Virus record (IMG/VR): IMGVR_UViG_3300001749_000005
Location: 1-20,684 of that record
Source of the DNA: a virus
Length of the DNA: 20,684 nt
Reading direction: 5' to 3' (one strand)
Position numbers and translations under genes: made by a program. Each line of letters begins with the position of its first letter. The first letter of the stretch is position 1. Below, one piece after another: positions 4,711 to 19,879 of this stretch. The notes beneath the pieces were generated by a model. The model saw nothing but the letters and a program-made list of their open reading frames with translations, ran no database searches and was not told the DNA's origin.

Positions 4711-5733
4711 CTAACCCTTTAATTTCCTACTGTTTGACATTCGTAATATTTTATTCACTATCTTAGGTTCATCGTTAGCGTTCAGCTCATGTTCCCACAA
4801 TATCAGGATTTTATAGCCGAGTTCAAGAAAGAAGGCTTTACGCACGTCTTCACGCATAGTTCCCTTACAAATCTCAGGATTGTGCCAATAAGTACCAAAT
4901 ACCTCGATAATTTCTCTACCATCTCGACTTATGAAGTCAGGATTCAAACCGCCAATAATTAGCGCACCGTTGCCAACATACTTGAATGGAAGATTATAGT
5001 CTTCGATTATTTTCATTAGTTTCTTCTCTGGTTTCGTCGGTCTCTTCAGCAATGCTTTCAGCATTTTTTTACGGTTATTATCAGAGATTCCATGTATTTT
5101 AAGCCATTTTCGAAAGCATGCATCGCTACAAAACTTGCGGTTAGGATTTGATGGATATGTTTCAAAGGTTTGCCCACACATAGCACATTTCTTGATTATT
5201 TTAGGCTTCCAATTGGGATTATCTTCTTTCCGTCGGTGTTTACTGAGGAATTCCCATGCGCATTGTTGTGAGCAGTATTTTTGCCTAATGGATGGCTTCA
5301 CTTCGAAAGTTTTACCGCAGTTAGGACAAGTTCTCGTCTCACGCTTGTAATTTGAGCTTCTTTCTCCAGTATGCCATATTGCAGAGCATTCTTTAGAGCA
5401 GAAAGTCATATTGTATTTAATTCTTGATTTCCGCCTAGCAAATGTTTTACCACATGCTGGACAAACCAATGTTTCTCTGGAATAATTAAGGTAACATTCT
5501 TTAGAACAGAAAATATGGTTCTTAACGTTTGAGGGCGCTCTAGAAAAGATTTTTCCGCAAAATTCACATGTTACATAATTAGCTTTAAAATTATGGGGTT
5601 TAAAATGTTGTTTTCTTTTCCAAGCATAGTGACATTTACGTGAACAGAAATAATGTTTACTTTTTCTGAGGTCCCTTGGCCATTTCATCACAGGTTTTTT
5701 GCAGTTCTCACAGTAAACCTTAAGTTTACTCAT
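4711..5733 (-). CDS. Zinc-finger endonuclease, Vsr/EDxHD-like (probable homing endonuclease)
   Basis: 340 residues. Five consecutive treble-clef-like fingers occupy about residues 5-215, each CxxC then CxxxC (for example C8, C11, C30, C34). The C-terminal 110 residues resemble the Vsr-like/DUF559 restriction fold: PTKPEKKLMKIIEDY, NPDFI with an acidic residue, IIEVFGTYWHN, and LELGYKILILWEHEL near the end. Related domains occur in the phage EDxHD homing endonucleases and in Vsr mismatch nicking enzymes. The fingers probably recognise DNA and the C-terminal domain cuts it. The ATG at 5733 lies within the end of the upstream gene (8-base overlap). It is most likely a free-standing mobile nuclease inserted between structural genes. 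Confidence 0.8.
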   Translation of the reverse strand: MSKLKVYCENCKKPVMKWPRDLRKSKHYFCSRKCHYAWKRKQHFKPHNFKANYVTCEFCGKIFSRAPSNVKNHIFCSKECYLNYSRETLVCPACGKTFARRKSRIKYNMTFCSKECSAIWHTGERSSNYKRETRTCPNCGKTFEVKPSIRQKYCSQQCAWEFLSKHRRKEDNPNWKPKIIKKCAMCGQTFETYPSNPNRKFCSDACFRKWLKIHGISDNNRKKMLKALLKRPTKPEKKLMKIIEDYNLPFKYVGNGALIIGGLNPDFISRDGREIIEVFGTYWHNPEICKGTMREDVRKAFFLELGYKILILWEHELNANDEPKIVNKILRMSNSRKLKG

Positions 5734-6483: not shown

Positions 6484-6551
6484 TAAAGTTCTATTCCTCT
6501 TTTCCTTAAGCTTTTACCCATCTCGGTTAACCAAGGCTCAAGTTCACCCAT
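6483..6551 (-). CDS. 22-aa small ORF coupled to both neighbours
   Basis: ATG at 6551-6549 shares its A with the TAA stop of the upstream gene (TAATG), and its own TAA at 6485-6483 shares its A with the ATG of the next gene (TAATG again). The 22-residue product is MGELEPWLTEMGKSLRKRGI followed by EL, a possible amphipathic helix. GGGGAG just upstream can serve as binding site. The double one-base overlap exactly fills the gap between two real genes, which is the best evidence for translation. Function unknown; it might also serve only to couple translation. Confidence 0.5.
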   Translation of the reverse strand: MGELEPWLTEMGKSLRKRGIEL

Positions 6552-6883
6552 TACTTTCTCCCCAAAAGCCAGATGAGGAATATTCCTCCTCCGATAACTA
6601 GGAGAGGAACCCAGTCAATATTTGCTAGAGATTGATTTGGGTATCGTCCCCAAGGAGCATAACGGTATTGTCTCGCGGGTAATGTTGCTTCTTTTCCGTA
6701 AATAGCTTGGTGTGTTACAGCGCGTTCTTCCTCGGTTTTTCGCCATGCAGGCCAAGAAACGTTTCCGGTTGGAGCGAAGCGGTATTGTCTGGCAGGTAAC
6801 GTTGCGCCTTTGCCGTAGATAGCTTCATGTGTTTGTCTACGTTCCTCCGTGGTTCTTCTAGGCGGATAAGCTCTTCTACTCAT
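6551..6883 (-). CDS. Tandem-repeat protein with C-terminal membrane anchor
   Basis: 110 residues from ATG 6883, with AGGAGG ten bases upstream; a longer frame from 6928 lacks a binding site. Two copies of a roughly 27-residue repeat lie at 11-37 and 50-77, each with TEER, TH(E/Q)AIYGK(G/E)ATLPARQYR and (F/Y)AP. The exact conservation of AIYGK and ATLPARQYR points to a repeated structural or binding unit. The extreme C terminus, residues 91-110 (WVPLLVIGGGIFLIWLLGRK), is a membrane segment ending in a short basic tail. The first 80 residues are very arginine-rich. Nearly the same anchor appears on the two TIM-barrel proteins further right, so these proteins probably share one membrane. Confidence 0.78.
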   Translation of the reverse strand: MSRRAYPPRRTTEERRQTHEAIYGKGATLPARQYRFAPTGNVSWPAWRKTEEERAVTHQAIYGKEATLPARQYRYAPWGRYPNQSLANIDWVPLLVIGGGIFLIWLLGRK

Positions 6884-6910
6884 TTTTTCATTTCCTCCTA
6901 CACATGTAAA

Positions 6911-6918
6911 CTTATAAG
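6911..6918 (+). promoter_or_regulatory. Palindromic TATA box, probably for the gene at 6953
   Basis: CTTATAAG, identical to the box before the RHH gene. For the plus strand it predicts a transcript start near 6942 and an 11-base leader. On the minus strand the predicted start would fall after the AGGAGG site of the opposite gene, so a shared divergent role fits less well. Confidence 0.45.
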
Positions 6919-6952
6919 GTTGGTTCATAGTAAAAAGTTTTAGGGTTCACTA

Positions 6953-7201
6953 ATGCCAGAGTATGTAGGTAAAGGACAGAATTTCTATTTAGTTACATGT
7001 GAATTGATGCTGTCGCCGGATGCCAGTAAAGAAGAGAAAATAAAGTTTCACGAGAACTTTTGTAGTAAATGTGGATTTTATATTGATGCAGCAGCGCGAG
7101 CTGAGAAAGCCATAAAAGAAAAAAGACCGTTTAGAAAGTTAGTTTGTGTTCACCCGAGTAACACGGCGGTTTTGGACAAGTGGAAGCAATATTTGGAATA
7201 G
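6953..7201 (+). CDS. Small cysteine-containing protein
   Basis: 82 residues from ATG 6953. Cysteines lie at 16, 37, 40 and 65, including an FCSKCGF pair and VTCEL/LVCVH, so one zinc site is possible. The middle (YIDAAARAEKAIKEKRPFRK) is a basic helix. There is no membrane segment and no strong ribosome binding site, so the message may be nearly leaderless. It is followed by a separate promoter for the membrane-protein gene at 7251. Not assigned to a family. Confidence 0.66.
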   Translation: MPEYVGKGQNFYLVTCELMLSPDASKEEKIKFHENFCSKCGFYIDAAARAEKAIKEKRPFRKLVCVHPSNTAVLDKWKQYLE

Positions 7202-7206
7202 CAAAA

Positions 7207-7215
7207 CTTTTAAAG
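7207..7215 (+). promoter_or_regulatory. TATA-like box of the membrane-protein gene at 7251
   Basis: CTTTTAAAG five bases after the previous stop. The expected transcript start, about 7239, coincides with the purine-rich binding site GAGGGAG (7239-7245), which lies five bases before the CTG at 7251. Confidence 0.45.
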
Positions 7216-7250
7216 TAGTTATTTGCCCTTTAGAGTTTGAGGGAGTCATC

Positions 7251-7682
7251 CTGAAAAAGTTTTTAGGCAGTTTAACAATGCTTGCGGTGATGTTCTTGCT
7301 ACTAGCAGTTCCTGTGTTTGCTCAAGGGAACGAAACAGATATTATTCCCTTGAATGGTGAAAACGGCTTCGAGGAAATCAAAATACTTGGAGAAACATTG
7401 GTATCTTTTGTGTTGGCTGCGGTGTTATGGGCTTTGACCGGCTTCTTCAAAATCCGAGACCCAGAGACAGAAGTGTTTGACCCCGTACAATTCTGTACCA
7501 CATTGGTTGTCGGCGCTATTACGGGTATCATTGCATTTGTTATTTATGAAGTGAAAGGAGTCTCATTGGCACCTACAGAAATTTGGGAGTATTTAATTGC
7601 GGCTGGTTTCGTAGCTTTCGTAGAGTCTTGGATAAAAGTTGTTTGGAGAAGAATAAAGCCCTACTTTACGCCTCCAACCTAA
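7251..7682 (+). CDS. Signal-peptide membrane protein, apparent CTG start
   Basis: 143 residues if translation begins at CTG 7251. There is no ATG, GTG or TTG between the promoter-like box and residue 10 in this frame. With CTG the protein starts with two lysines and a classic signal sequence (LKKFLGSLTMLAVMFLLLAV, cleavage likely after VFA), and GAGGGAG lies five bases upstream. Starting at ATG 7278 would lose the lysines and the binding site. Three further membrane segments follow (near LVSFVLAAVLWALTGFF, LVVGAITGIIAFVIYEV and YLIAAGFVAFVESW), and the C terminus is basic. It may be a virion or envelope membrane protein. It has its own promoter and is followed by a T8 terminator. Confidence 0.7.
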   Translation: MKKFLGSLTMLAVMFLLLAVPVFAQGNETDIIPLNGENGFEEIKILGETLVSFVLAAVLWALTGFFKIRDPETEVFDPVQFCTTLVVGAITGIIAFVIYEVKGVSLAPTEIWEYLIAAGFVAFVESWIKVVWRRIKPYFTPPT

Positions 7683-7684
7683 CC

Positions 7685-7695
7685 CTCTTTTTTTT
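7685..7695 (+). terminator. T8 terminator
   Basis: CTC followed by eight T, three bases after the stop of the membrane-protein gene and directly before the end of the converging minus-strand gene. It fits the archaeal T-run type of termination without need for a hairpin. Confidence 0.6.
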
Positions 7696-7917
7696 CTATG
7701 TTAAAAACGCTATAATAACTGCTGATGCTGACGCGATGCCACTTGCTATTATCGTTGCTTTAGCCTGCCACGTCATTGGAGGATGTTGATGATTATTTAT
7801 TGCGTTTACAACTTCGGTTTTCATACTGTCAATTTTCTGTTCTATCCGACGGGTGCGTTCATCACAAAAACTTCTAGGAACAAACTCTCTTGGGTTACTA
7901 CGTTTCTTCCGTGGCAA
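7696..7917 (-). CDS. Small basic protein with C-terminal membrane anchor
   Basis: 73 residues from TTG 7917. GGTGA (7927-7923) lies exactly five bases upstream and the TATA-like box predicts a transcript start next to it; an in-frame ATG at 7929 would fall at or before that start. The first 25 residues are very basic (LPRKKRSNPREF), residues 26-45 form a charged helix (RTRRIEQKIDSMKTEVVNAI), and the last 22 are a membrane segment (ATIIASGIASASAVIIAFLT). Basic soluble part, helix and tail anchor fit a small membrane-bound oligomer. Family unknown. Confidence 0.68.
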   Translation of the reverse strand: MPRKKRSNPREFVPRSFCDERTRRIEQKIDSMKTEVVNAINNHQHPPMTWQAKATIIASGIASASAVIIAFLT

Positions 7918-7948
7918 GTTAATCACCATTTTCTTATTGTTTCAAGAT

Positions 7949-7956
7949 ATATTAAA
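7949..7956 (-). promoter_or_regulatory. TATA-like box of the small anchored protein gene
   Basis: On the minus strand TTTAATAT, followed by ATC. The predicted transcript start, about 7924-7927, leaves only a short leader carrying GGTGA. Confidence 0.45.
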
Positions 7957-7960
7957 CAGT

Positions 7961-8677
7961 TTAGCTTGTAAGCAATATCCAAGCGGCGACGCCTAACACT
8001 ATTAAAGGTGCAGTTTTAGTTACTGTAACGCCAACAGGCGGCGGGATATATGCTTCTTCGCTGCCCAATCCAATCATGCCGTCCCGGTCATGCTGCAACG
8101 CGCCTATCACTTGTGCCCAATCAAGCTCGGGACGGTTCCACAATTTAGCTATCCACCTATCACACTCGGCGATGCCAGCGTTCCAGACGTCTTTCAGTTT
8201 AGCCCCATCCAACATTTTTTGGATGATTGCAACTGTCACGTTTTTAAACGGTTCAGCTAATGGGTCTTGTTCAACTGAATATTCAGGGTTGATTAGAAAC
8301 TGGAAATCGACTTGGTAGCCTACTGTCCATATTCCACCTTTCTTAATTATCGACGGCAACAATTCCTGGCCTACACTACAACTGACAAAGTGGCTTATAG
8401 ACCCTGCCATTATTTCATCGTTTGTGCAGGCTCGAAAGACAATTTGTTGTTCAAACCCTGTAAATACTGAGGCGTTGCCATGGCCAAGCAGTATAACCGC
8501 ATCTATTTTCTCGTTTTCTATTGTTTGCTTTAATGTTTGAAAGGTTGCTGCTTCATCAACTAAATCAATGATGTTGAAGCCTCTTTTAACTGCTTCTTCT
8601 ATTCCTACTCCAAGCCATGATTTGCCGTATTTGAGAGCTACGTCCACGTCAGGCCGAAAGAACAGGGCAGTAGGCAT
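7961..8677 (-). CDS. Clan CD (caspase/gingipain-like) peptidase homologue with C-terminal membrane anchor
   Basis: 238 residues from ATG 8677, with GGTGA four bases upstream and a TAATG overlap with the gene before it. The core resembles clan CD cysteine peptidases (caspase, gingipain and CHAT relatives): a strand ending in a His-Gly loop, AVILLGHGN (His66), and about 34 residues later a strand ending in the presumed nucleophile, SHFVSCSVGQELL (Cys100), then KKGGIWTVGY, where these families have an alanine/glycine strand. After a proline stretch (IPPPVG) the last residues, APLIVLGVAAWILLTS, form a membrane anchor. It is probably a membrane-tethered protease, perhaps acting on the virion or on the host surface. 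The fold assignment rests on two motifs only and could be wrong. Confidence 0.62.
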   Translation of the reverse strand: MPTALFFRPDVDVALKYGKSWLGVGIEEAVKRGFNIIDLVDEAATFQTLKQTIENEKIDAVILLGHGNASVFTGFEQQIVFRACTNDEIMAGSISHFVSCSVGQELLPSIIKKGGIWTVGYQVDFQFLINPEYSVEQDPLAEPFKNVTVAIIQKMLDGAKLKDVWNAGIAECDRWIAKLWNRPELDWAQVIGALQHDRDGMIGLGSEEAYIPPPVGVTVTKTAPLIVLGVAAWILLTS

Positions 8678-8898
8678 TACTTCACCACATAGTTCAAACG
8701 TTTCGCTTCGTCAAACACGTATTCTTTTCCTACTTGGCTGTTTCTTTCTACTTGCGCAATCAAATCTAAAACGCTATATGATTTCATGTCTAGCACGATT
8801 CTAGGTCTACGCCGTTCTGCTACAGGCAGTTCTTTAGCCCATTGTCTTAACCTGTCAAGAACCAGTTTTTTAGCATTTACATAATTTATCTCACTCAT
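8677..8898 (-). CDS. Hypothetical 73-aa helical protein
   Basis: From ATG 8898, behind GTGGTAAGT; an in-frame GTG at 8907 is the less likely start. The 73 residues are mostly helical and charged: NAKKLVLDRLRQWAKEL, RIVLDMKSYSVLDLIAQVER, and a final segment YVFDEAKRLNYVVK. There are no cysteines and no membrane segment. The stop shares its A with the start of the peptidase-like gene (TAATG), so the two products are likely made together, and this could be a partner or inhibitor. That role is inferred from position only. Confidence 0.66.
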   Translation of the reverse strand: MSEINYVNAKKLVLDRLRQWAKELPVAERRRPRIVLDMKSYSVLDLIAQVERNSQVGKEYVFDEAKRLNYVVK

Positions 8899-8931
8899 AC
8901 TTACCACTCAGCAAAAACTATAGAGAGAAGA

Positions 8932-8941
8932 AATTATAAGG
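8932..8941 (-). promoter_or_regulatory. TATA box for the 73-aa protein and peptidase pair
   Basis: Minus strand CCTTATAATT, with a predicted start near 8911 and the ATG at 8898. Confidence 0.5.
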
Positions 8942-8942
8942 T

Positions 8943-9176
8943 TTACTCTCTCAGAAGTAAAAGAAGCCCGAAAATCCCGAGAAGTATAAGGAATCCTGTA
9001 GCTGGTGGCGCTGCAACTCTTCGTATTTGTAGTGTTTCGGTTTTGTGAGAGGTTTGGTAGAATGGGTCGCCTAGTTTTAGTTTGGCTGAGGAAGGTTGAT
9101 ATTCTGTTTCGTAGCAGATGATGGCTTGTTTATATCTTCCTTGTTCATCGAGTATGTCGCATTTGGTTAGGCTCAT
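8943..9176 (-). CDS. Small C-terminally anchored protein
   Basis: 77 residues; ATG 9176 directly follows the TAA of the upstream gene. The N-terminal 50 residues are soluble, with beta-strand character (KQAIICYETEYQPSSAKLKL). They are followed by RRVAAPPATGF and a membrane segment ending in a short charged tail (ATGFLILLGIFGLLLLLRE). The proline / hydrophobic / charged pattern recalls archaeal C-terminal sorting signals and is shared, in varied form, with five other proteins in this window. No family for the soluble part. Confidence 0.7.
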   Translation of the reverse strand: MSLTKCDILDEQGRYKQAIICYETEYQPSSAKLKLGDPFYQTSHKTETLQIRRVAAPPATGFLILLGIFGLLLLLRE

Positions 9177-9521
9177 TTATCTTTTAACCCTCGGAAACCT
9201 AACTTCAACAGTATGTGTGCCTTCTGTTAGGATGCCGAGTGAATATTGGTAGTAGTTGGCGTTGCCGTCGTAACTGTTCAAGGTTACTGTGCCGACTAAT
9301 GTGCCGTCTAGAAAAACGCGTAGTTCTGTTCCTGTGAGGTCGGCTAGGTCGTCAGCAATTAATGTTCCGGCTACCATAACGTCTTCGTCTTCTCCGAACT
9401 CGGTTCCAGGTGTTGTGTAATCGTCTGCTGAACCATAAGCCGTAATTGTCAGGGTGGTTCTTACAGCTCTTAAAATAATGATGGTTTCAGTTATTTTGGT
9501 TGGTCTGTATATTACGGGCAT
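9177..9521 (-). CDS. Ig-like beta-sandwich protein
   Basis: 114 residues from ATG 9521, behind GGTG four bases upstream. The sequence is almost all short strands: TLTITAYGSADDYTTPGTEF, then VAGTLIADDLADLTGTELRV, FLDGTLVGTVTLNSYDG, and YQYSLGILTEGTHTVEVRF. The last two match the end of Ig-like repeats such as those with GxxVGTATTxxDG...YSxxLxxGxHTVxV in archaeal and bacterial surface proteins. There is no anchor of its own; it is followed at once by the anchored 77-aa protein, so the pair may form one surface unit. Probably an adhesin or spacer domain. Confidence 0.72.
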   Translation of the reverse strand: MPVIYRPTKITETIIILRAVRTTLTITAYGSADDYTTPGTEFGEDEDVMVAGTLIADDLADLTGTELRVFLDGTLVGTVTLNSYDGNANYYQYSLGILTEGTHTVEVRFPRVKR

Positions 9522-9552
9522 TTACACCACAAAATAGAGTATGTGTTTACGA

Positions 9553-9561
9553 GTTTAAAAG
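9553..9561 (-). promoter_or_regulatory. TATA-like box of the Ig-like gene
   Basis: Minus strand CTTTTAAAC. The predicted start near 9532 leaves about 11 bases, including GGTG, before the ATG at 9521. Confidence 0.5.
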
Positions 9562-9569
9562 TTTTTTAG

Positions 9570-9580
9570 AAAAAAAGGGA
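9570..9580 (-). terminator. T7 terminator of the TIM-barrel operon
   Basis: On the minus strand CCC followed by seven T, three bases after the stop of the 55-aa gene. It separates the TIM-barrel operon from the promoter of the Ig-like gene. Confidence 0.55.
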
Positions 9581-9583
9581 GGT

Positions 9584-9751
9584 TTAGTCTTTTTTGAATG
9601 CGTAGAGTGTTCCTAGTTGTCCGAGGTCTATGTCGCCTTCTGGGAATGCTGTGTAGCCTGTTGGTGGTTCTGGTGGAGTGTCAGCTAATATTCGTTTGAC
9701 GGTTATGGTGACTGGAACTGTTACCGTGAATGTTGTTTCTATTTCGCCCAC
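9584..9751 (-). CDS. 55-aa beta-rich protein, GTG start
   Basis: From GTG 9751 to TAA 9586-9584. GGGGTAA lies five bases upstream, a variant of the site used in the left arm, and overlaps the end of the TIM-barrel gene; the start is one base after that stop. The product begins with alternating strand residues (ETTFTVTVPVTITVKRIL), followed by a proline linker (DTPPEPPTGY) and an acidic end. VTVPVTVTVKR-type strands also occur in the 932-aa protein (TVPVTVMSK). No anchor and no family. A T7 terminator follows. The tight fit and the binding site make it a likely real gene. Confidence 0.62.
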   Translation of the reverse strand: MGEIETTFTVTVPVTITVKRILADTPPEPPTGYTAFPEGDIDLGQLGTLYAFKKD

Positions 9752-9752
9752 T

Positions 9753-11108
9753 TTACTTACCCCTTATAAATAAGATTATTGTTAATCCACCAAATAAGAT
9801 TAACGGTATCCAAGGGATTGTAGGCGCAGGCGAAATTGTCGCGCGAATCTCTTGTATTATCCCGTCTTGTGCTGGCGCGTTTCGCCATGAAGTATCTATG
9901 TGCGTTGGGTGAGCATCCTTATCTAGACAGTAGCGTTCAAAGTCTTGCCCGCAACACCATGGTTGGCTTCCAAACCCTCTTACCTGAGCCACCCACGCGA
10001 CCTTTTGCGCCATGGCATCAATAGTCCCACCGCTTCCAATCGGTCTGGTGAGCACCTCATGTGCATTCCTATATCCAACATTAGTCAAGATAGGTTTGCC
10101 CATGATTTGGTTGATTGCCCAGAAGTCTTGAATTATGTCTCGTCCAAAGACTCCCGAGACCATTCCGTGTCCAGTTCCAGCTTTGTACCAGTTAAGGTTG
10201 TTTCTGAATGCAGGCACGATAAGAGTATCGACATCGTTGTCAGTCCATGTTGCAGGTATTTGTGCCGAGGTCAGTATGGCTAGCCAATAGCTGATACTGA
10301 TGAAGTCAAGATGCGAGAGATATGTTGCTCCCGTGAGCCCTTTGTAATACGCTGGGAGTTGATTGTCTAGTGCTAGTCCATTGTCGATGAGCAATTGCAA
10401 ACCGTCGTATCCAAGCCCATAGTCATTATAGAATCCGTTGATGTCTATTGTTAGTAGAACGCTAGACTTGCCTGCACCTGTGAATATTTGCCGAACCTCG
10501 TCTATCATGGAAATCCATTTGGCGTTGTGATTCCAACAGAAGTCTCCGTAAGGGTAGCACATTTCGAACGTGAGCATGAATATATCACCGTTCTCGAAGT
10601 TAGAGTTGGAAGCTAGGAATTCCGCTGTTGGTCGAAGTGTGTTATCCATGTAATTCGTCAGGAAAGTTTCACCGTTGAATGTGGGATAGTCTGCTTCTGG
10701 CCCGGAGTGAAACACAGGAACACTGTCAGCTATTGTGCCCGTACCCGTCCAAGCAGTCGACAGGCAGAACTCCAGTTTAAACCCTGCATCATGTATCCTT
10801 TTCGCAGCACATGGACCGTAGTTTGGGTCTGTCGGATATCCGAAAACCCATTTTTTGTAGTTGTCGCACATTACTTGTTGGCTGTCTTCGTATGCACCGA
10901 GGACAGGCGTGTTCCATGTGCTTTGATTACTTATGTCAGGAATCTTCCAGAAAGTGCGCAGTTGCACATGAGTGATTTCTCCATTGGGCGAGGCTGTCTT
11001 CAAATCGTTCAAAGCCTGTTGCCAAGCGTTTGCGTAGCCTTGGTCATCCAAGTTTATGGATAGAAGGTCGACCATGAAATCTGCGATTCTGTACCTGTAG
11101 CCTGTCAT
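9753..11108 (-). CDS. TIM-barrel glycosidase-like protein with C-terminal anchor
   Basis: 451 residues from ATG 11108, GGAGA seven bases upstream. Strand and loop signatures fit a glycoside-hydrolase-type (beta/alpha)8 barrel: ITHVQLRTFWKIPD (45-58), GFKLEFCLSTAW (109-120), IFMLTFEMCYPYGDFCW with Glu182 as possible acid/base, LDFISISYWLAIL (267-279) and GKPILTNVGYRNAHE (337-351). The place of the second catalytic acid (about 376-386, VRGFGSQPWCCG) has no Glu, unlike the 932-aa paralogue, so activity is uncertain. Residues 433-451 (WIPLILFGGLTIILFIRGK) form a membrane anchor much like that of the repeat protein at 6551. It probably acts on or binds surface polysaccharide. There is no N-terminal signal peptide. 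Confidence 0.72.
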   Translation of the reverse strand: MTGYRYRIADFMVDLLSINLDDQGYANAWQQALNDLKTASPNGEITHVQLRTFWKIPDISNQSTWNTPVLGAYEDSQQVMCDNYKKWVFGYPTDPNYGPCAAKRIHDAGFKLEFCLSTAWTGTGTIADSVPVFHSGPEADYPTFNGETFLTNYMDNTLRPTAEFLASNSNFENGDIFMLTFEMCYPYGDFCWNHNAKWISMIDEVRQIFTGAGKSSVLLTIDINGFYNDYGLGYDGLQLLIDNGLALDNQLPAYYKGLTGATYLSHLDFISISYWLAILTSAQIPATWTDNDVDTLIVPAFRNNLNWYKAGTGHGMVSGVFGRDIIQDFWAINQIMGKPILTNVGYRNAHEVLTRPIGSGGTIDAMAQKVAWVAQVRGFGSQPWCCGQDFERYCLDKDAHPTHIDTSWRNAPAQDGIIQEIRATISPAPTIPWIPLILFGGLTIILFIRGK

Positions 11109-11141
11109 CTTTCTTCTCCAACTAAAAGTAGAGGAGCAACT

Positions 11142-11149
11142 CTTATAGA
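11142..11149 (-). promoter_or_regulatory. TATA box of the TIM-barrel gene
   Basis: Minus strand TCTATAAG. The predicted start near 11117 leaves a leader of about ten bases with GGAGA before ATG 11108. Confidence 0.5.
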
Positions 11150-11190
11150 TTTTATGAAATAGTTATCAGGTAGAATAATATTTTTCCATT

Positions 11191-13989
11191 TTACTTTGTC
11201 TCTGTGGTTAACAGATACAGTAATAATCCTCCCATAAACAATATTGGGATTATGGGAGGCGGTGGAGGCGGAGGAGGAGCGACGGCGGTGTGGGATACCA
11301 GACCTGCATCGATAATGCCTTGCATGGACGCATAGCAGTTGCGGCAGGTGCCGGTGGTCGTGCCATACGTCATCGGGTCGTCAAAGTGCTCGAACAGGAC
11401 GCCGTATAGGCTGTCTTGAATGGCTCTGTAGGCGTCGAACCACGCCTTGTACGCGATGGCTTGTTCCCCCTCGTCGTCTGGCAGTTTAAGTCCCCCTCCC
11501 CACGGTCTCAGGATGGCAGCCCATTGCCTCGCGTAGCCGAAGTTCATCATTACTTTCTTGTTGAAATTGGCAGAGATGTCGGCTACGCGTTGCAGCAGGT
11601 TGCCTTCGTCGGGCGCATTGGAGAACGCCGCCAGCAACTCCTCGTATGTCGCGTCCACGTTGTAGGTTAACCGTGACCACAGGCTGATGCTTAGGTAGTC
11701 GAGGCTGGACAGAAACGTGTTACGCGTCGCGTTCGCCCCCTCAAAAGCGATAAACGTCGCCCCTTGCCACGTGAGCATCACGTTAGGAGCTGCCTCGCGA
11801 CACGCGTCTATGATGGCTTGCCACTGTGCGTTGAACGTGCCATCTTCCAATCGTGGGTCTATCCAGTAGGACTCCCAAGCAATGCAAAGTTCTTCCACAC
11901 CGTTCAGTTGGCACCATTCCGCTGATTCCACGGCAAACTGTTTGAAACTGTCGAAGTAGGTGACGCCGTCGCCCACCGTGGGATAGTTGCCGTAGCAGAC
12001 CAAGCCGAGCCTAACCCGATAGCCACGGACTTTAGCTTTCTGGGTGGCAGCGAGAAGTTTGGCGAAGGTGAGCTGCGGCCAGCCAGGCGATTGCACTACT
12101 TTGTTAGGATTCGCGGGGTCAGCCTCGTATAATCTACGGATGTCAATGGTGTTGACATGGGGGATTTGCGCCTTTAGGTCGTCGAGGCAGTCGTCCATGC
12201 CCGTTGAGTCGTACTCGAACCAGTAGGGAAAGATGCAGGCGCACCTGCACGGCCAGACGTTGCCCTGATAAACGTCTGAAGGTACGCAGCAAATCTTAGG
12301 TGCTAGCGCGAAGTCCTTGACGACAGAGTTTTCTCCTTCTAGAAAGACGAACAGTTCACGGTTCTTCTCGTAGTAGTCTGGGCGAAACGCTTCAATAATG
12401 TAGGTGGGCAACCCGACTTCCGAGACAGCCATGGCGAATGCGCCCTGCGCGTCGGTGCGAGCCGTCGTCACGGGAGTGTGAATCGTGGTATCGCTGCCCT
12501 GTCCTAGGGCGACGCAGACGTCCGCTAGTGGCGCCCCCGTGTTCATATCCGTCACGGTGCCTGTTATTGTCTTCTCTGTCACTAGAGCTGGGGTTTGCCA
12601 CAAACTCACATAATACACTGTGGTGCTGACGTCGATGCCTATTGCCCAGCCTTCGCCCACTTCCACGGAATCAATGTACGGCGCAAGGTCAGATGTGGTG
12701 ATGCCTAATTTTTCAAACCCCTTAACTGGCAGTGTCGGGGTGGGATATACCTCGCGGGCGAACACTTGCAGGTAGCCTAGTGTTTCTGTTTCCGCTTTGT
12801 ACACTACTTCAAACTCGTAGAGGACGTTCGGCTCCAATGCCAGCCCTGCGACCATCCCTTTTGACTCGCCGCCCTGGTCCCAATACACGACGCCCAGTCG
12901 GTTGCTCGTGCCGCTTAGGTACAACACCACAAAAGGACTCCCGCCCCCGTACTGGCTGTGATGGCTAATGTAGAGGATGTTCCGAAGCTTAGTGAAGTCG
13001 GGGAAGGACGCCTGAAACTTGAGACGAACGCTGGCAAACTGCGCTTCAAGGTCTTGATAGAGAAGTGAAGCTCGCCCGTCCGTTGCCGTAAGCTCAACAC
13101 CATTTCTGCCCAACCCCACGGGGTCCGCGAAAACGTATGAACCGTCACCATAAAACCTCATGGGTTCGAAAGAGCCGTTGCAGTCCGTTTCGAAGACGAG
13201 GATTTCCTCTGATTCTTTAAATACTGCGGTTATGGTCTGTGCCACGTATATTACTTTGGCTAACGGGTTGTCTGTCGCTAGCGGTGTTCCGTCCGAAAAT
13301 TCGTAACGGTTAAAGGTGTAGAGCTTGTCGTTAACCAGGATGGTGGCTGGCGCCTGCAACGTGAAAAGAGTGTCCTCCCCCACTTCTCGCGTGAATGGCG
13401 TGACATTTGGTGGCGTGGCAGGCTGGATAAAGGGGATGCCAGTGAGTTCCGCATCTGCCGTCGTTTTACTCATGACGGTGACGGGCACGGTTGCTGACGC
13501 CGCTGTAGCTTCGAGGATGTCCAGCTTGTACGTGTGCGCTTCGTTCCTGTTGGTTATTTCAAGCCGCAGGTATGAGACGTCTGCTAGATTCGGGCTGCCC
13601 GTGATTGTGCCGCTCGCAATCGGCAGGATGACATGTGTCCATTCCCCCGACACTAGCTGCGACGTGAAGTCGAATGTAATGTAGTTTTCCCAGTCTGGAC
13701 AGTTTACACGGAGTTTCGCTGCGAAGTCTGCCGTCAACGGGTCGTCGGTCTTGAACCAGAACTCAATGTTCGCTTGACCCGACAAGTCGATGGATGGAGA
13801 CGGGGAGTACGACATATAGACATTGTACTTGACGGCGTCGGAGAGGCAACTGATGCTGCCAAGGTTGTTCGGGTAGTCAATCTTGTCAACCGTGTCGATG
13901 ACGAAGGGATTCGCGGGGTCGCAGAAGCGTATGTACCAATTGTTGGGTTCTTCCGTCAGCGACGCCGTGTCGCAGTAGGAGATTATCAT
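11191..13989 (-). CDS. 932-aa multidomain glycosidase-like surface protein with C-terminal anchor
   Basis: Domains, in order: jelly-roll carbohydrate-binding-like (1-165; WFKTDDPLTADFA, GEWTHVILPI), small beta domain (166-262), LamG-like lectin fold (263-460), carboxypeptidase-regulatory-like repeat (472-562; TITGTVTDMNTGAPLADVCV), TIM barrel (595-895), eight prolines (905-912), and a membrane anchor (IPILFMGGLLLYLLTTETK). In the barrel, Glu706 (AWESYW) and Glu867 (VLFEHFDDP) are the likely acid/base and nucleophile, and LDYLSISLWS and KKVMMNFGYARQW match the 451-aa neighbour. The gene is visibly richer in G and C, above all at third positions, than its AT-rich neighbours, suggesting recent transfer. 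It probably binds and cuts a polysaccharide from a membrane-tethered position. The specific substrate cannot be read. Confidence 0.78.
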   Translation of the reverse strand: MIISYCDTASLTEEPNNWYIRFCDPANPFVIDTVDKIDYPNNLGSISCLSDAVKYNVYMSYSPSPSIDLSGQANIEFWFKTDDPLTADFAAKLRVNCPDWENYITFDFTSQLVSGEWTHVILPIASGTITGSPNLADVSYLRLEITNRNEAHTYKLDILEATAASATVPVTVMSKTTADAELTGIPFIQPATPPNVTPFTREVGEDTLFTLQAPATILVNDKLYTFNRYEFSDGTPLATDNPLAKVIYVAQTITAVFKESEEILVFETDCNGSFEPMRFYGDGSYVFADPVGLGRNGVELTATDGRASLLYQDLEAQFASVRLKFQASFPDFTKLRNILYISHHSQYGGGSPFVVLYLSGTSNRLGVVYWDQGGESKGMVAGLALEPNVLYEFEVVYKAETETLGYLQVFAREVYPTPTLPVKGFEKLGITTSDLAPYIDSVEVGEGWAIGIDVSTTVYYVSLWQTPALVTEKTITGTVTDMNTGAPLADVCVALGQGSDTTIHTPVTTARTDAQGAFAMAVSEVGLPTYIIEAFRPDYYEKNRELFVFLEGENSVVKDFALAPKICCVPSDVYQGNVWPCRCACIFPYWFEYDSTGMDDCLDDLKAQIPHVNTIDIRRLYEADPANPNKVVQSPGWPQLTFAKLLAATQKAKVRGYRVRLGLVCYGNYPTVGDGVTYFDSFKQFAVESAEWCQLNGVEELCIAWESYWIDPRLEDGTFNAQWQAIIDACREAAPNVMLTWQGATFIAFEGANATRNTFLSSLDYLSISLWSRLTYNVDATYEELLAAFSNAPDEGNLLQRVADISANFNKKVMMNFGYARQWAAILRPWGGGLKLPDDEGEQAIAYKAWFDAYRAIQDSLYGVLFEHFDDPMTYGTTTGTCRNCYASMQGIIDAGLVSHTAVAPPPPPPPPIIPILFMGGLLLYLLTTETK

Positions 13990-14037: not shown

Positions 14038-14736
14038 CTACGGGATAGAGCTTATCCGTAGCGCCTGCCACCACGCTTTAGTTCTTCCCGCCGCTGAACC
14101 TTGAAACAGCGGGGTAGCGACGAGCGGGGGAATACCGTAGGCTGCTGTGGGGTGGTCTTCGTAGTAGAAGGGTAGTCCGTTGTTGATGTTAGGCGGGTCT
14201 ATTCGTGCAGTCATGTCAGCAGTGGAGCATAACATATAATTGTCCGTTGCATTATCAGATTCATGCACTCCAAAGTAAATACCTGGCACCAGCTGAACAG
14301 GTGTCGTGAACGGAAAGAACTGTTTCTGGCGTATGCCAGCACTGGCGATGCTAACCGACACAGCCAGCCGATTGACGGGCGCGTAGTTCAAGCTGTCGTA
14401 GACGGCGACGTATTGATTGCCCGCCCCGACGTTGCTGTGGCTCATGATAATGCCGTCCACGGTCATTATGAACGGTATCTGGTATGGGTTGTAGGTGATT
14501 TCGCGATTATTACTGTGCACACTTGAACCTGTAAAACTTCTCCCCGAGTCCGAATAGATTTCTCTCATAAAATGTGGAAACTCTTGTTGCCAAGCGACAC
14601 CGTTATCACGGTATAAAATACTAAGGTCTGTCGCCCAGTAATAACGGTTAACGACGCCAGCAGCGGGGCGAGCAGCTAAAGTTCCACTGAAAATGTAGGT
14701 TCCGCCTGCACTGGATGCCCGAGTCTTAACCGACAT
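14038..14736 (-). CDS. Phage tail-fibre-like protein
   Basis: 232 residues from ATG 14736, one base after the previous stop, with GGAG about nine bases upstream. Residues 17-50 have the pattern common in phage tail-fibre and tail-tip proteins: GTLAARPAAGVVNRYYWATD followed by LYRDNGVAW. The remaining 170 residues are beta-rich with a jelly-roll look (QYVAVYDSLNYAPVNRLAVS, VQLVPGIYFGVHESDN). No membrane segment. It follows the PEGA-domain protein in what looks like one transcript. A receptor-binding or fibre role is the best guess, based on the N-terminal motif. This is one of the two strongest signs that the window is viral. Confidence 0.72.
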   Translation of the reverse strand: MSVKTRASSAGGTYIFSGTLAARPAAGVVNRYYWATDLSILYRDNGVAWQQEFPHFMREIYSDSGRSFTGSSVHSNNREITYNPYQIPFIMTVDGIIMSHSNVGAGNQYVAVYDSLNYAPVNRLAVSVSIASAGIRQKQFFPFTTPVQLVPGIYFGVHESDNATDNYMLCSTADMTARIDPPNINNGLPFYYEDHPTAAYGIPPLVATPLFQGSAAGRTKAWWQALRISSIP

Positions 14737-14737
14737 T

Positions 14738-16093
14738 CTAGTTTACTCCAACATAACTGATGATTTCTGTTGCCGTGCCGATAACCCATATCTTATTAAC
14801 GTTGTCAATATCCATGCTAACTGTAGCACCTGGCTGAAGCCTATAACCATTCAGTAAAGTTACAGTGTTGTCATGTCCCATGCACACAACCGCATTCGTG
14901 GTTGGATTCTCTAAAGTCACGCTTTTACACGTTTCATTCGGTAATTGTTGAGCTGCTCCAGTTAATGTTACTTGTCCCTCAAGCACCTCGGTTGGGATTC
15001 CGCCTTCAACTACGTTTACTGGAAGCGGGTTCTCCGATGAAACATCTTCTTCACCGCCGAAAACTTGTCTTAAATTGTCTTTGTGTTGAAGTTGGTTGAT
15101 GGGGCCAGCTTCTTCAATTTGTTTCAGCCTGTACGTGGCAGTTAAATTCACAGCTTCTGGACTGCCTAAAGTCACTGTTCTAGAGGGGTTAACCGAACCG
15201 TTTTCCCATTGAGTGAAAATGTATTTGTCTACGCCGACCATCCATGAAGAGGGAAACACAAGAGTGTAGCTTCCGCTAAGCAAAGGTTGCCGGAAAGGTG
15301 TTGATTGTTTTTCACCGTTTAAAGTGAAGTCGACAGGAGAAGGTTCTGAAGTTATGGTTACATCATGCATTTCAGTAAAGGTGAGGGTAACTATAGATGT
15401 TTTTCCCTCTTCAATTGTAACTGTTTTCTTGTCTGTTTGACCTTTATAGTTGCCGACAACCGTGTAAATTCCAGGGGTTAAATCAAGCGTTTTTTCTGTA
15501 TTGTATGGTCCTTGCCCATTTATCAGAAAGGAAGCGTCTACTTCCTCCGAATCAGCAACAGCATACACATATAATCTGCCTTTGCCAGCTGGAGGTTTTT
15601 CAGTAGGCTTGTAAGTACAGTAGATACACCTGATATATGAGTCCGTTGTTGTAGCTGCTAAAGTGTCCGGAAAATTTGGGTATGTTACCAGCTTAAAAAA
15701 TCCTTGTCCTGACGCACCACCATTAATCGCTCCGACTTGTATACTATTATTGTTAGAGTCTTCCAGCGTCCAGTTAGCCAATACAACTAGCCAGTATTCT
15801 TCAGCATTTAATGTTGGTGGAGATGAAAAAACAAACGTTACCCATTGCCAATCAAATTTGTAATTAAAAGTTTTTTCTTCTGTGACAGCGACGAGGCGGT
15901 TATCAGATTTTCGGTAGATTGCAGCCCTAATTTTTATAAGTTCAGTGGGAACTTCAAAGTGGAATGCGTGAAGCCATGCCTTAATGTTCTGAGCTACCCC
16001 TGGCGTAGAACATGTAAAAAACGAACCGCCTATATAATTTGAAATGTTGAAGTTAAATAGTGTTCCTTCACATTTACTTCCGAAAGTAGCCAT
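14738..16093 (-). CDS. PEGA-domain virion-surface protein with phage-like C-terminal domain
   Basis: 451 residues from ATG 16093, immediately after the previous stop. Residues 1-165 form a beta jelly roll (IKAWLHAFHFEVPTELIKIR, WLVVLANW). A PEGA-type domain follows at 171-240 (GRLYVYAVAD, TLDLTPGIYTVVGNYKGQT), then a second related domain at 243-322 (VDFTLNGEKQSTPFRQPLLS, YIFTQWENGSVNPSRTVTL). The final domain, 373-451 (GQVTLTGAAQQLPNETCKSV, GYRLQPGATVSMDIDNVNKI), resembles C-terminal domains of tailed-phage head or tail surface proteins. PEGA and Ig-like domains usually bind glycans or cell-wall polymers. No signal peptide or anchor. Likely a virion decoration or adsorption protein, co-transcribed with the fibre-like gene. 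Confidence 0.72.
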   Translation of the reverse strand: MATFGSKCEGTLFNFNISNYIGGSFFTCSTPGVAQNIKAWLHAFHFEVPTELIKIRAAIYRKSDNRLVAVTEEKTFNYKFDWQWVTFVFSSPPTLNAEEYWLVVLANWTLEDSNNNSIQVGAINGGASGQGFFKLVTYPNFPDTLAATTTDSYIRCIYCTYKPTEKPPAGKGRLYVYAVADSEEVDASFLINGQGPYNTEKTLDLTPGIYTVVGNYKGQTDKKTVTIEEGKTSIVTLTFTEMHDVTITSEPSPVDFTLNGEKQSTPFRQPLLSGSYTLVFPSSWMVGVDKYIFTQWENGSVNPSRTVTLGSPEAVNLTATYRLKQIEEAGPINQLQHKDNLRQVFGGEEDVSSENPLPVNVVEGGIPTEVLEGQVTLTGAAQQLPNETCKSVTLENPTTNAVVCMGHDNTVTLLNGYRLQPGATVSMDIDNVNKIWVIGTATEIISYVGVN

Positions 16094-16643: not shown

Positions 16644-17093
16644 TTAGGTTTTTCTTTCTCCACGAGCGTATGCGACATCACCGTACCATTTCTCTTTTGC
16701 TGGAACGTCTTTTGTAACGACTGCACCCGCACCGACCAATGCTTCTTCTCCTATTGTTACGCCAGCAAGGATTACTGCCGCGCCCCCTATTATCGCACCC
16801 CTTTTAATAAGGACCCGCATAGGTGTCCATTCAGCCTTTAACAGGTTAGGGTACTTGTCGTTTTGTATACTCGCATGAGGACCAATAAAAACATAATCTT
16901 CCATAACCGTACCAGGAGCAATAAAAGCGTGGGCTTCAATCTTGCAGAAGCAGCCTATTTTAGCTCCTCCAATCTCTACGAAACTGGCTATTTTTGTGCC
17001 TTCACCTATTTCACTATCATAAATGTTAACCAGTTTAGAGTGATGAATAGATGCTAAAACAGTCGGATGTAACTTGCTACGTTCAATAGGTAT
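16644..17093 (-). CDS. Left-handed beta-helix acyltransferase, no canonical start codon
   Basis: About 149 residues. Hexapeptide repeats make a left-handed beta helix: IGEGTKIASFVEIGGAKIG, then AFIAPGTVMEDYVFIGPHAS, NDKYP, IKRGAIIGGAAVILAGVTIG, and VGAGAVVTKDVPAKEKW, as in WlbB/WbpD-type sugar N-acetyltransferases. The first ATG in frame (16904) would cut the helix in half. Sequence matching the family's N terminus (ERSKLHPTVLASIHHSKLVN) continues upstream to the overlap with the epimerase stop, but holds no ATG, GTG or TTG. ATA 17093 or ATT 17087 (overlapping TGA as ATTGA) are the best-placed starts, GGAGTGG lying upstream. It probably acetylates an amino sugar made by the neighbouring enzymes. 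Confidence 0.7.
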   Translation of the reverse strand: MPIERSKLHPTVLASIHHSKLVNIYDSEIGEGTKIASFVEIGGAKIGCFCKIEAHAFIAPGTVMEDYVFIGPHASIQNDKYPNLLKAEWTPMRVLIKRGAIIGGAAVILAGVTIGEEALVGAGAVVTKDVPAKEKWYGDVAYARGERKT

Positions 17094-19059
17094 TTTGGAA
17101 CCACTCCAAAGTTTTTTTCAATCCCATTTTAAATCTTGTCTGTGGCGTCCAATCCAAGAGTTTCTGGGTTTTTGCCATACTAATTTCTTCCTTTATTATT
17201 TGTCCGGGACGGTCCGGAACAAACTTGAGCATATCGCTAGGACATCTAGTTTGTTCCAGAATCATGTTAGCAATTTGCAAAACAGAGAGTTCTTCTTCCG
17301 TAGCTAAGTTTAATGTTTCGTCAGCAATTCCCTTCTCTAAAACTTTGGTTATTCCCTCTATAAGGTCGTCAATGTAAATCATACATCTTGTCTGTAATCC
17401 AGACCCATGAATTGTTAACGGTTGGTTTTCAAGAGCTTGCCTAATGAAAATGTGAATTGCTAAAGCTTCGCGCAAGCCAGGTCCATAAGTAGTTCCGAAC
17501 CGTAGAATGTCATAGGTTAACCCATTCTTCTCATGCAACCCTTTAATGATAGTTTCACCCACAACTTTTGTAACTCCATAAATGTCTGTAGGTACACAAA
17601 TGCTTTCTTCAGTGCTCGGATGATTCGGCGTATTCCCAAAAACACATGCGGTGCTATTACCACTAAACGTCACATCACCCTCTCTTTCAACAAGGAAATT
17701 ATTGTTTGGAACGGAGAGACACCATATTGAACCATTATAATCGACCATTTTAGCTGTATTAAATGTTTGACCAAGTAACCTTTCCTTTGAATGAACATAA
17801 ACATAATAGGTTGAATAGTTGTTGGCTATTCTTCTTTTATTTATGTAAGAAACTTGTTCCTTTTCAATATGAAAATGAGTTGATTTACCTATTTTTATGC
17901 ATAATTCCACCATATTCTCAGCAAGAAAAGGAGAAATGGTTGTTAAAACTCGGTGTCTATATCCATCGCTATCCATAAGTCCGTCAAAGAGAAATTCCAA
18001 ATATTCTTTGCCGTAAGAAAGACACCATTTAGGAATTTTTTTCTGCAATGCCCCTTTCCCACATTCTTTAAATAAGTTATAAAATGATGACGAAACAAAA
18101 TAAATTTCTGCACCTTTTTTATGCCAAGAGTATTTTATTCCACATCTATTTAGAATCCCTTCAACCTTTTTTGCCGCCTTATCCGATTTAGGAATACACA
18201 GATTAATTTGGTTAGAAGGACCGAAAATCTTTTTATTACCGTCGCTTGTTTGAATTTTTATAAAACGTCCCTTGTTATCTCTTGCTTTAACTAACCGTTC
18301 TTTACGAGTTAACCCAGTTTTATTAATGTAAAGGTTATATGGATGTAAATATCCATCGCCAATGTATATTCCAATTAGATATAAAATATCTCCAGTATCA
18401 TATGATTTATTATCAATTTTTATTTTTTCTTCTTTATTTCCATTCCAAATTCCGCTAGGAATTTTATAAACTCTTCGTGTGAATGTTTTTTGGGCATCTT
18501 CCAAAATTATATGATTGGACGGTGTCCTAATGAGCATTTTATGGTTAGGAGTTACTAAAAGATTAAATGACCTTCCTTTGAAATGAATCATTTTTCCATT
18601 ATATTTATAAACATAAATTTTTTCTATTGGTTGAACTTCTATTATACCCTTCTTATTCAAAGTAAACACTTTGTCTTCTATGTTTAATTCATCAACTTTC
18701 TTAATTCCATTTATAGTAACAATCCTTGTTTGTATATCATGGCAAGCAAAACTTAAAGGCATGTCCAGGTCAGAACAGCATTTAGCAACAACATAAGTTC
18801 CGTCAACGTTAACTTTCAAAGCTAACTCTGGATGAAGACGAGCAACATTTAAGTCTGCAATAGCTGCTAAATGATAAACATAATTCACTTGCTTAACAGC
18901 GTTATAAACTGCTTCCACATCAGTAATGTCTCCAATAATAGAATTGCACACTTTACTAGGTCGGAGGTCGTAACTGTAAACTTCGTAGCCGTTTTCAATA
19001 AGTTTTCTAGACAGTGCAGAACCAATAAAACCCGCTCCACCCGTAATGAGGACTTTCAT
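17083..19059 (-). CDS. NDP-sugar epimerase/dehydratase (extended SDR) interrupted by an intein
   Basis: The 658-residue frame includes a 363-residue intein (106-468), leaving a 295-residue mature enzyme, normal for the GalE/RmlB-type family. The N-extein has the NAD-binding TGGAGFIG (6-13), acidic Asp31 after the second strand, GDITD (43-47) and YHLAAIADL (62-70). The C-extein begins STACVFGNTPNHPST with the catalytic Ser/Thr loop, followed by TDIYGVTKVVGE with the Tyr and Lys of YxxxK, and later RFGTTYGPG. It should change the stereochemistry of, or dehydrate, a nucleotide-linked sugar for glycan synthesis. ATG 19059 is preceded by a short gap after the radical SAM gene. It overlaps the acetyltransferase gene. 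Confidence 0.9.
   Translation of the reverse strand: MKVLITGGAGFIGSALSRKLIENGYEVYSYDLRPSKVCNSIIGDITDVEAVYNAVKQVNYVYHLAAIADLNVARLHPELALKVNVDGTYVVAKCCSDLDMPLSFACHDIQTRIVTINGIKKVDELNIEDKVFTLNKKGIIEVQPIEKIYVYKYNGKMIHFKGRSFNLLVTPNHKMLIRTPSNHIILEDAQKTFTRRVYKIPSGIWNGNKEEKIKIDNKSYDTGDILYLIGIYIGDGYLHPYNLYINKTGLTRKERLVKARDNKGRFIKIQTSDGNKKIFGPSNQINLCIPKSDKAAKKVEGILNRCGIKYSWHKKGAEIYFVSSSFYNLFKECGKGALQKKIPKWCLSYGKEYLEFLFDGLMDSDGYRHRVLTTISPFLAENMVELCIKIGKSTHFHIEKEQVSYINKRRIANNYSTYYVYVHSKERLLGQTFNTAKMVDYNGSIWCLSVPNNNFLVEREGDVTFSGNSTACVFGNTPNHPSTEESICVPTDIYGVTKVVGETIIKGLHEKNGLTYDILRFGTTYGPGLREALAIHIFIRQALENQPLTIHGSGLQTRCMIYIDDLIEGITKVLEKGIADETLNLATEEELSVLQIANMILEQTRCPSDMLKFVPDRPGQIIKEEISMAKTQKLLDWTPQTRFKMGLKKTLEWFQNTY
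17656..18744 (-). mobile_element. LAGLIDADG intein in the epimerase
   Basis: Starts at Cys106 (CHDIQTRIVTINGIKKVDEL, block A). Block B is LLVTPNHKMLI with the TxxH motif. Two LAGLIDADG helices are present, LIGIYIGDGYL and EFLFDGLMDSDGYR, each with an acidic residue. Blocks F and G are IWCLSVPNNNFLVEREGDVT and FSGN, followed by Ser as the first C-extein residue. The penultimate residue is Gly instead of the usual His. It is inserted directly before the catalytic STACVFG loop of the enzyme. The DNA is visibly more AT-rich than the extein, which suggests a separate origin. Homing activity is likely intact, since both endonuclease motifs are whole, but was not tested. Confidence 0.9.
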
Positions 19060-19063
19060 TTTT

Positions 19064-19879
19064 CTACCACCATCTTCGTCCGCCTTTTAAGGGGCAAATA
19101 CTACAATACTTATATTTTAATCTGCCACCGAACTCAGCGAGTGTTTTAACTATTTTTTGGTGTTTAGAGCTGTACCACAACTGCTTAAGGGAAGAATCAT
19201 AAATGTTGCCTAGGTCCCAGTTAGCCATGATGTCCTCGCAGCATAGAAGCATCTCTCCTTTATAGTCAATTATCATTCGGCGTGTAAGGTAGCAGGGAGA
19301 AGGCCAGTTGCGCCTTAATTTTATTAGCCTTTCCAACTCTTGTTTTCTTGGACTGTAATGGGTGACTATGTGTTCTCCATATATCGCGTGTGTTGACTCC
19401 CATCCAAGTCTCCGTTTAAAAAGTCCTTCAAGATATTTGGTTCTCTCTATCGCTTTAGTTGTAGGCATATGGTCCATCGTTATGTAGTATCGGTCAATCA
19501 CAAAACCTGTTATAAGCGTATCAATCAGTTTAGCAATTTTCTTGCTATCGGGGTTTTCAGGAGTTAACACGTCGCCGTTTGTGTCCAATCTGGTTTTAAG
19601 TCCCCTCTTCTTAGCGTACTGGACAAACTTGAAGAAACGCTGCCAATCCAATAAAGGTTCACTGTAAAGATAGAATGCAACCCAGTCCTTGTAACCCATC
19701 GCTACTGCTTGGTCTATTACGCTGTAAACTATTTTGGCGGCTAATTTTATGTTCTTCGGCGTACCGTCTTCGTTCCACCGGCTCCTAGTAGGGTCAGTTT
19801 GCCGTATGCATGTAGGACATCTCCTATTACATAAACTGCTAATCTCCACGATTAAATTCTTGAATAACGGAAACGCCAC
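19064..19879 (-). CDS. Radical SAM/SPASM-type protein
   Basis: 271 residues from GTG 19879, with GAGGG six bases upstream and the stop of the methyltransferase gene one base before. The N terminus has VEISSLCNRRCPTC, the CxxxCxxC (17, 21, 24) that binds the 4Fe-4S cluster and S-adenosylmethionine. Later, FYLYSEPLL replaces the usual GGEP motif. The C-terminal part has PCYLTRRMIIDYKGEMLLCC, DLGNIYDSSLKQLW and YKYCSICPLK, as in SPASM domains that hold extra clusters. Such enzymes modify peptides, sugars or lipids by radical chemistry. In this operon a role in surface glycan or glycolipid modification is likely. Confidence 0.85.
   Translation of the reverse strand: MAFPLFKNLIVEISSLCNRRCPTCIRQTDPTRSRWNEDGTPKNIKLAAKIVYSVIDQAVAMGYKDWVAFYLYSEPLLDWQRFFKFVQYAKKRGLKTRLDTNGDVLTPENPDSKKIAKLIDTLITGFVIDRYYITMDHMPTTKAIERTKYLEGLFKRRLGWESTHAIYGEHIVTHYSPRKQELERLIKLRRNWPSPCYLTRRMIIDYKGEMLLCCEDIMANWDLGNIYDSSLKQLWYSSKHQKIVKTLAEFGGRLKYKYCSICPLKGGRRWW

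Follow-up and report, generated by a model that had tools for sequence, protein, structure and literature searches.

Single C-terminal spans in a virus record

The DNA analyzed here, a window of 20,684 bases (bases 1-20684 of IMG/VR virus record IMGVR_UViG_3300001749_000005, 44,788 bases in total), carries six minus-strand genes whose products, here called carriers, each end in a hydrophobic tail. An earlier note on this DNA had picked out the six tails and proposed that they form one shared membrane anchor; all six are the true ends of their open reading frames (ORFs). The rest of the record was read as two pieces, L002 (record 20600-40000) and L003 (39900-44788). Carriers are named by their first coordinate (Table 1). 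Exactly one membrane span, located at the C terminus, was found in the products of 9 of the 82 ORFs of the whole record (6551, 7696, 7961, 8943, 9753, and 11191 in the window and 30572, 31934, and 33004 beyond it), and these spans end no more than 12 residues from the C terminus. The same architecture was present in 5 of 400 ORFs (Fisher p = 8e-5) of eight archaeal viruses (STIV1, SIFV, SSV1, ATV, PSV, SIRV2, SH1, and SFV1) treated with the same ORF caller and threshold, a control set that covers enveloped, internal-membrane, and naked virions but is small and mostly crenarchaeal. Beyond the spans lie 0 to 4 residues, most of them basic (K/R, 10 of 17; D/E, 2 of 17).

None of the nine carriers has an N-terminal hydrophobic segment, as had been claimed for the six in the window. 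Reading those six from stop to stop added no such segment, so a signal peptide missed through a wrong start is unlikely. The carriers have the anatomy of tail-anchored proteins: they lack a signal peptide, and their only span lies no farther than about 30 residues from the C terminus. This is not a genome-wide property, since the gene at 7146 encodes a membrane protein with a Sec-type signal.

A motif common to five tails

Five tails, those of 6551, 9753, 11191, 31934, and 33004, have in common the motif [I/L/V]P[I/L][I/L]xx[G/C]G, which the earlier note had rightly seen in the three that lie in the window. The glycine pair (P-L-L-x-x-GG) falls inside the span, and 0 to 3 basic residues follow the span, with none in 33004. 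Similarity among the tails was judged against a strict null in which only nonpolar residues were permuted and polar residues stayed in place. A full shuffle, which scatters the residues of the hydrophobic block and so overstates similarity, was dropped for this purpose. The five motif tails, a group drawn by motif after inspection and favored by that choice, were more alike than in 500 of 500 nonpolar shuffles (z = 10.9). Without any grouping, the nine tails together gave z = 8.2, and 0 of 500 shuffles were as good. For the other four (7696, 7961, 8943, and 30572), z was 2.0 and 17 of 500 shuffles reached the observed sum; these appear to be merely hydrophobic ends that are not clearly alike. 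The tails of the record also resembled one another more than they did those from the control viruses (p = 3e-4).

Pairwise scores were 51 for the tails of 6551 and 9753 and 41 for those of 6551 and the GH5 protein 31934, values reached in 0 of 300 full shuffles, and 55 for the GH5 protein and 33004. The tails of the paralogues 9753 and 11191 scored 39. Gene duplication was rejected as the source of the shared tails because the bodies of 6551 and 9753 are unrelated and their tails nevertheless outscore those of the paralogues, although the paralogous pair itself may have inherited its tail. Linkers of seven or eight prolines are present on three of the five motif carriers (11191, 31934, and 33004). 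Proline-rich linkers had been reported for several of the window carriers, which is true of 11191 (P8) and weakly so of 9753, 8943, and 7961. The proline codons are mixed (CCT CCT CCG CCT CCA CCG CCT CCC in 11191), on which ground slippage was rejected as their origin. Since the tails also differ in their codons, recent copying does not account for them, and the likeness appears to be kept at the protein level. The sequence likeness thus supports a modular tail shared by five carriers, two of them outside the window; 7696, 7961, and 8943, originally counted with it, are not members of the motif family.

The same tail was also sought on other viral proteins. In IMG/VR, the pattern PPPP plus LP[LI][LI]..[GC]G gave 6 matches, W[IV]PL...GG gave 22, and a relaxed PPP form gave 54; none ends a long ORF, and all were judged to be chance. 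IMG/VR searches with 9753, the GH5 protein, the structural candidate at L002:5390, and two paralogue alignments found no relatives, and tblastn against GenBank phages found no carrier relative save weak partial matches to 11191 (and one domain of the noncarrier 14738). These collections may omit records near this one, and sister viruses are possible.

Carrier domains, neighboring genes, and host

The largest motif carrier, 11191, comprises a beta-rich N-terminal part, a CarboxypepD_reg-like domain (amino acids [aa] 474-562; Pfam E = 5e-7), and a GH113-like C-terminal domain with a weak match (E = 0.005). Its C-terminal third is paralogous to 9753 (blastp, 25% identity over 198 aa, E = 4e-5), so the carriers are not, as first thought, otherwise unrelated. 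The description of both proteins as TIM barrels holds in part: 11191 has the weak GH113 match, and strands and helices alternate in a low-confidence AlphaFold model of 9753, which was too poor to use (pLDDT 39) and had no Foldseek match at E <= 0.001. What we take to be the GH-A nucleophile stretch reads NFGY or NVGY in 11191 and 9753 instead of TEIGY; if this is right, the two proteins may bind rather than cut, which is a lead and not a test. A GH5 domain is present in 31934, in which an NE pair aligns with the NE of a Thermotoga endoglucanase that we take to be the GH5 catalytic acid/base. Profile and acid/base pair both place the protein in GH5, and a candidate nucleophile (TELG) falls outside the local alignment. 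By eye, 33004 and the N-terminal part of 11191 resemble lectin or carbohydrate-binding beta domains. The identifiable carriers, GH5 (31934) and GH113-like (11191), are predicted to be glycan-linked. Carrier 7961 had been called peptidase-like, a label for which an HG...C pattern would be the sole basis. It had no match in Pfam, NCBIfam, PADLOC, or PDB, and its AlphaFold model was too poor (pLDDT 46), with no Foldseek match at E <= 0.001.

Two tail-less genes lie upstream of the carriers in the same-strand block. The C-terminal 75 to 85 aa, approximately, of 14738 match phage proteins, one of them annotated as a virion structural protein (40%, E = 3e-5). The product of 14038 is presumably of the fiber type, an assignment that we take from its YYATD..LYRDNG motif.

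Pfam, PHROGs, tblastn, and a Walker motif scan revealed neither a capsid protein nor a packaging ATPase, and terminal repeats were not recognized either, so the record may be incomplete. A cluster of four small membrane proteins (143, 113, 148, and 256 aa; no matches) at L002:7847-9955 (minus strand) provides candidates for the envelope or coat of a virion with a membrane. The virus is probably archaeal. TATA/BRE-like boxes of the AAAACTTTTAAA type occur four times against 0.6 expected, a count reached in 3 of 100 shuffles, and stand upstream of two genes; as weak evidence, they suggest an archaeal host. Searches for relatives did not identify the host, since the epimerase query gave a single bacterial match (28%) among genome contigs.

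At least three glycosyltransferases are encoded in the record as well, together with one hexapeptide-repeat protein and one nucleotide-sugar epimerase. An apparent intein, C-HDIQTRIVTING...VTFSGN-S, splits the epimerase gene (17083-19059, minus strand; Pfam Epimerase E = 7e-39) in frame and matches the Pfam intein splicing model at E = 2e-4. At 19064-19879 (minus strand), a Radical SAM/SPASM protein gene adjoins sugar and methyltransferase genes.

Table 1. Carriers, tails, and nearby features (positions in the window or, where marked, in the record)
Position	Strand	Length (aa)	Feature	Sequence or match
6551..6928	-	125	Motif carrier 1; two THxAIYGKxATLPARQYRxAP repeats, then tail	WVPLLVIGGGIFLIWLLGRK
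6554..6613	-		Motif tail of 6551, last 20 codons	ends GRK
7146..7682	+		Membrane protein with Sec-type signal; internal contrast, called from sequence	LKKFLGSLTMLAVMFLLLAVPVFAQGN
7203-7214			Archaeal TATA/BRE-like box, entered for plus-strand gene 7146-7682	AAAACTTTTAAA
7696..7929	-	77	Single C-terminal span; outside motif family	ATIIASGIASASAVIIAFLT
7961..8677	-	238	Single C-terminal span; fits loosened motif form only	APLIVLGVAAWILLTS
8943..9176	-	77	Single C-terminal span; without xP[LI][LI] motif	APPATGFLILLGIFGLLLLLRE
9753..11108	-	451	Motif carrier 2; probable TIM-barrel protein	paralogue of 11191 C-terminal domain
9756..9815	-		Motif tail of 9753	PWIPLILFGGLTIILFIRGK
11191..13989	-	932	Motif carrier 3; multidomain	
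11194..11277	-		Polyproline linker (P8) and motif tail of 11191	IIPILFMGGLLLYLLTTETK
14038..14736	-		Likely fiber-type protein, tail-less	PHROG 19068 (function unknown), E = 2.5e-5
14738..16093	-		Likely virion structural protein, tail-less	
record 30572-31678		368	Single C-terminal span; outside motif family	ends IILATGVALTSVALIVIYLKKR
record 31934-32899		321	Motif carrier; GH5-family protein, polyproline linker	PPPPPPPSFILPLIIVGGMFFLLSRG; PF00150 E = 3e-17
record 33004-33828	+	274	Motif carrier; polyproline linker	PPPPPPPDILPLLVLCGIVLLLTQI

Proposed membrane display and its alternatives

The architecture described above is real and unusual; its function we infer. Our preferred reading, to which we assign a probability of about 0.5, is that the motif tail is a reusable tail-anchor module, inserted from the cytosol, through which a membrane-containing virion displays glycan-active proteins on its envelope. 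The carriers would be made and folded in the cytosol, after which the C-terminal segment of roughly 18 residues would enter the membrane, with only 0 to 4 residues, mostly basic, left to pass through it. The bulky N-terminal domain would remain on the side of synthesis, spaced from the surface by the proline linker. If the viral membrane were acquired intracellularly, as in STIV and SIFV, the carriers would reach the outer face of the envelope, because the outer face of an external envelope would be exposed to the cytosol during assembly and a tail-anchored protein could thus appear on the virion surface without export. During attachment, they would there bind glycans of the host surface and trim them. 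In support of envelope display, the carriers lack signals despite an ordinary Sec-type signal elsewhere in the record, five tails are significantly alike on nonhomologous bodies, the polyproline appears to be kept at the protein level, carriers that could be identified are glycan-linked, K/R predominate beyond the spans, and the genes adjoin the virion-type gene 14738.

Several points weigh on the other side. Under the positive-inside rule, basic residues after a span favor a domain outside the cell in the host membrane, so the basic ends of the carriers would place the domain outside the host cell and export would be needed. Loading onto a virion membrane fits the data, but neither a capsid protein nor a membrane-virion hallmark was recognized in the record. 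The searches of IMG/VR and GenBank phages yielded no relative in which the tail could be seen to be conserved, the enzyme activity of the carriers is predicted, and the spans were called by hydropathy only.

A more specific form of envelope display, which we put forward tentatively and regard as rather doubtful, is a dedicated signal-independent system in which one interchangeable tail, a polyproline stalk plus a P-L-L-xx-GG span perhaps recognized through its GG face by a viral envelope protein, loads glycan-active proteins (glycosidases, lectin-like proteins, and repeat proteins) onto the virion from the cytosol. If the tails do bring cytosolic enzymes onto a viral envelope, whether or not in this specific form, an archaeal virus could bear glycosidases that are large and already folded on its surface with no export step, and the tail would be a short tag that could be moved to other proteins for membrane display. 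Such loading would also provide a testable handle on how intracellularly formed envelopes of archaeal viruses are supplied with surface proteins.

We consider it unlikely that the carriers are instead anchored in the host cytoplasmic membrane, on its cytosolic side, during infection, where they would act in making viral glycoproteins or lipid-linked glycans or, freed at lysis, release progeny from the host surface. The wealth of glycosyltransferases and sugar enzymes in the record would suit such a role, and tail anchoring keeps the domain cytosolic, but GH5 and lectin-like domains have no known cytosolic substrate and the carriers adjoin a virion-type gene. The odds appear distinctly poor for a route in which the domains reach the cell surface without a signal, be it by N-out insertion, through a holin-like pore, or upon lysis, while the basic C terminus stays inside and the virion buds through the cell membrane. 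Such a route would account for the positive-inside charge pattern and for Cys-rich and lectin-like domains that look extracellular by eye; however, domains of up to about 900 residues would have to cross a membrane without a signal, for which no common precedent is known.

We find it very unlikely that there is no shared module and that independent hydrophobic C termini are alike through low-complexity spans. The motif is absent from 4 of 9 tails and the tail DNA is not alike in codons, but the five motif tails beat every nonpolar shuffle and the tails of the record are closer to each other than to those of other archaeal viruses. The least probable reading, which we judge highly unlikely, is the sorting signal suggested by the earlier note, here a CTERM-type tail that an archaeosortase or rhombosortase-like enzyme of the host would cleave and attach. 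The many-to-one design, the motif, hydrophobic span, and often basic end, and the several carriers per genome are shared with such systems, but CTERM proteins have an N-terminal signal always or with few exceptions and carry their motif ahead of the span (PMC3237569), whereas these carriers lack the signal and have GG within the span. PGF-CTERM has no match in the record, NCBIfam shows no CTERM model in the carriers, and no sortase was recognized among ten further proteins of the record, most of them membrane proteins. The proposed check of the rest of the element for a sortase or insertase gene likewise yielded no candidate among the small membrane proteins.

The envelope-display reading can be set beside several known systems. 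In STIV (Turriviridae), A55 and the major capsid protein B345 are each fixed in the internal membrane of the virion by a helix at the C terminus, and intracellular envelope formation has been proposed for STIV, SIFV, and SEV1 (PMC10551542). The use of a C-terminal helix as the sole anchor is common to A55, B345, and our carriers, but the STIV proteins are neither enzymes nor lectins and have no polyproline linker. The motif is missing from the two tails detected here in STIV1 ORFs (133 and 125 aa). The core genes of Thermococcales spindle-shaped viruses include lectins that bear a transmembrane helix (PMC12934983); the ConA1 and ConA2 lectins of these viruses (PAV1 and TPV1) are, like the carriers, modular glycan-binding proteins with a transmembrane domain, and the excerpt consulted makes no mention of glycosidases bearing the same tail. 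The GlyGly-CTERM/rhombosortase, PEP-CTERM/exosortase, and PGF-CTERM/archaeosortase systems also reuse a short C-terminal span on unrelated carriers, and they differ in their N-terminal signals, a motif ahead of the span, and a dedicated protease (PMC3237569).

Tail-anchored proteins delivered by Get3/TRC40 similarly have one C-terminal span, a very short tail, and no signal peptide; our carriers differ in being viral, and no Get3 was recognized in the record. Chiyouviridae and SFV1, enveloped members of Adnaviria (PMC10848311, PMC6105669), resemble this virus in their membrane proteins, glycosyltransferases, and element size, and SFV1 shares a GDP-mannose dehydratase-like gene. This record, however, contains no recognized adnavirus coat protein or other homologue, and SFV1 had no single-span C-terminal protein under the same test.

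Elsewhere in the record, in the product of the gene at 4711-5733 (minus strand), several zinc-finger-like CxxC repeats precede a Vsr/DUF559-type nuclease domain. Small CxGKKGxxFxxC paralogues with 40 to 47% identity, for which relatives were not found, are encoded on the plus strand at L002:19060-19296 and L003:297-590. A second shared module, KHxxEESVxKH..., is N-terminal and occurs on a glycosyltransferase (L002:3366-4721) and a small protein (L002:2289-2546), with a related stretch on a third protein (L003:1928-2119; blastp E = 2e-6 and 1e-4), and it may serve as a viral N-terminal recruitment tag.

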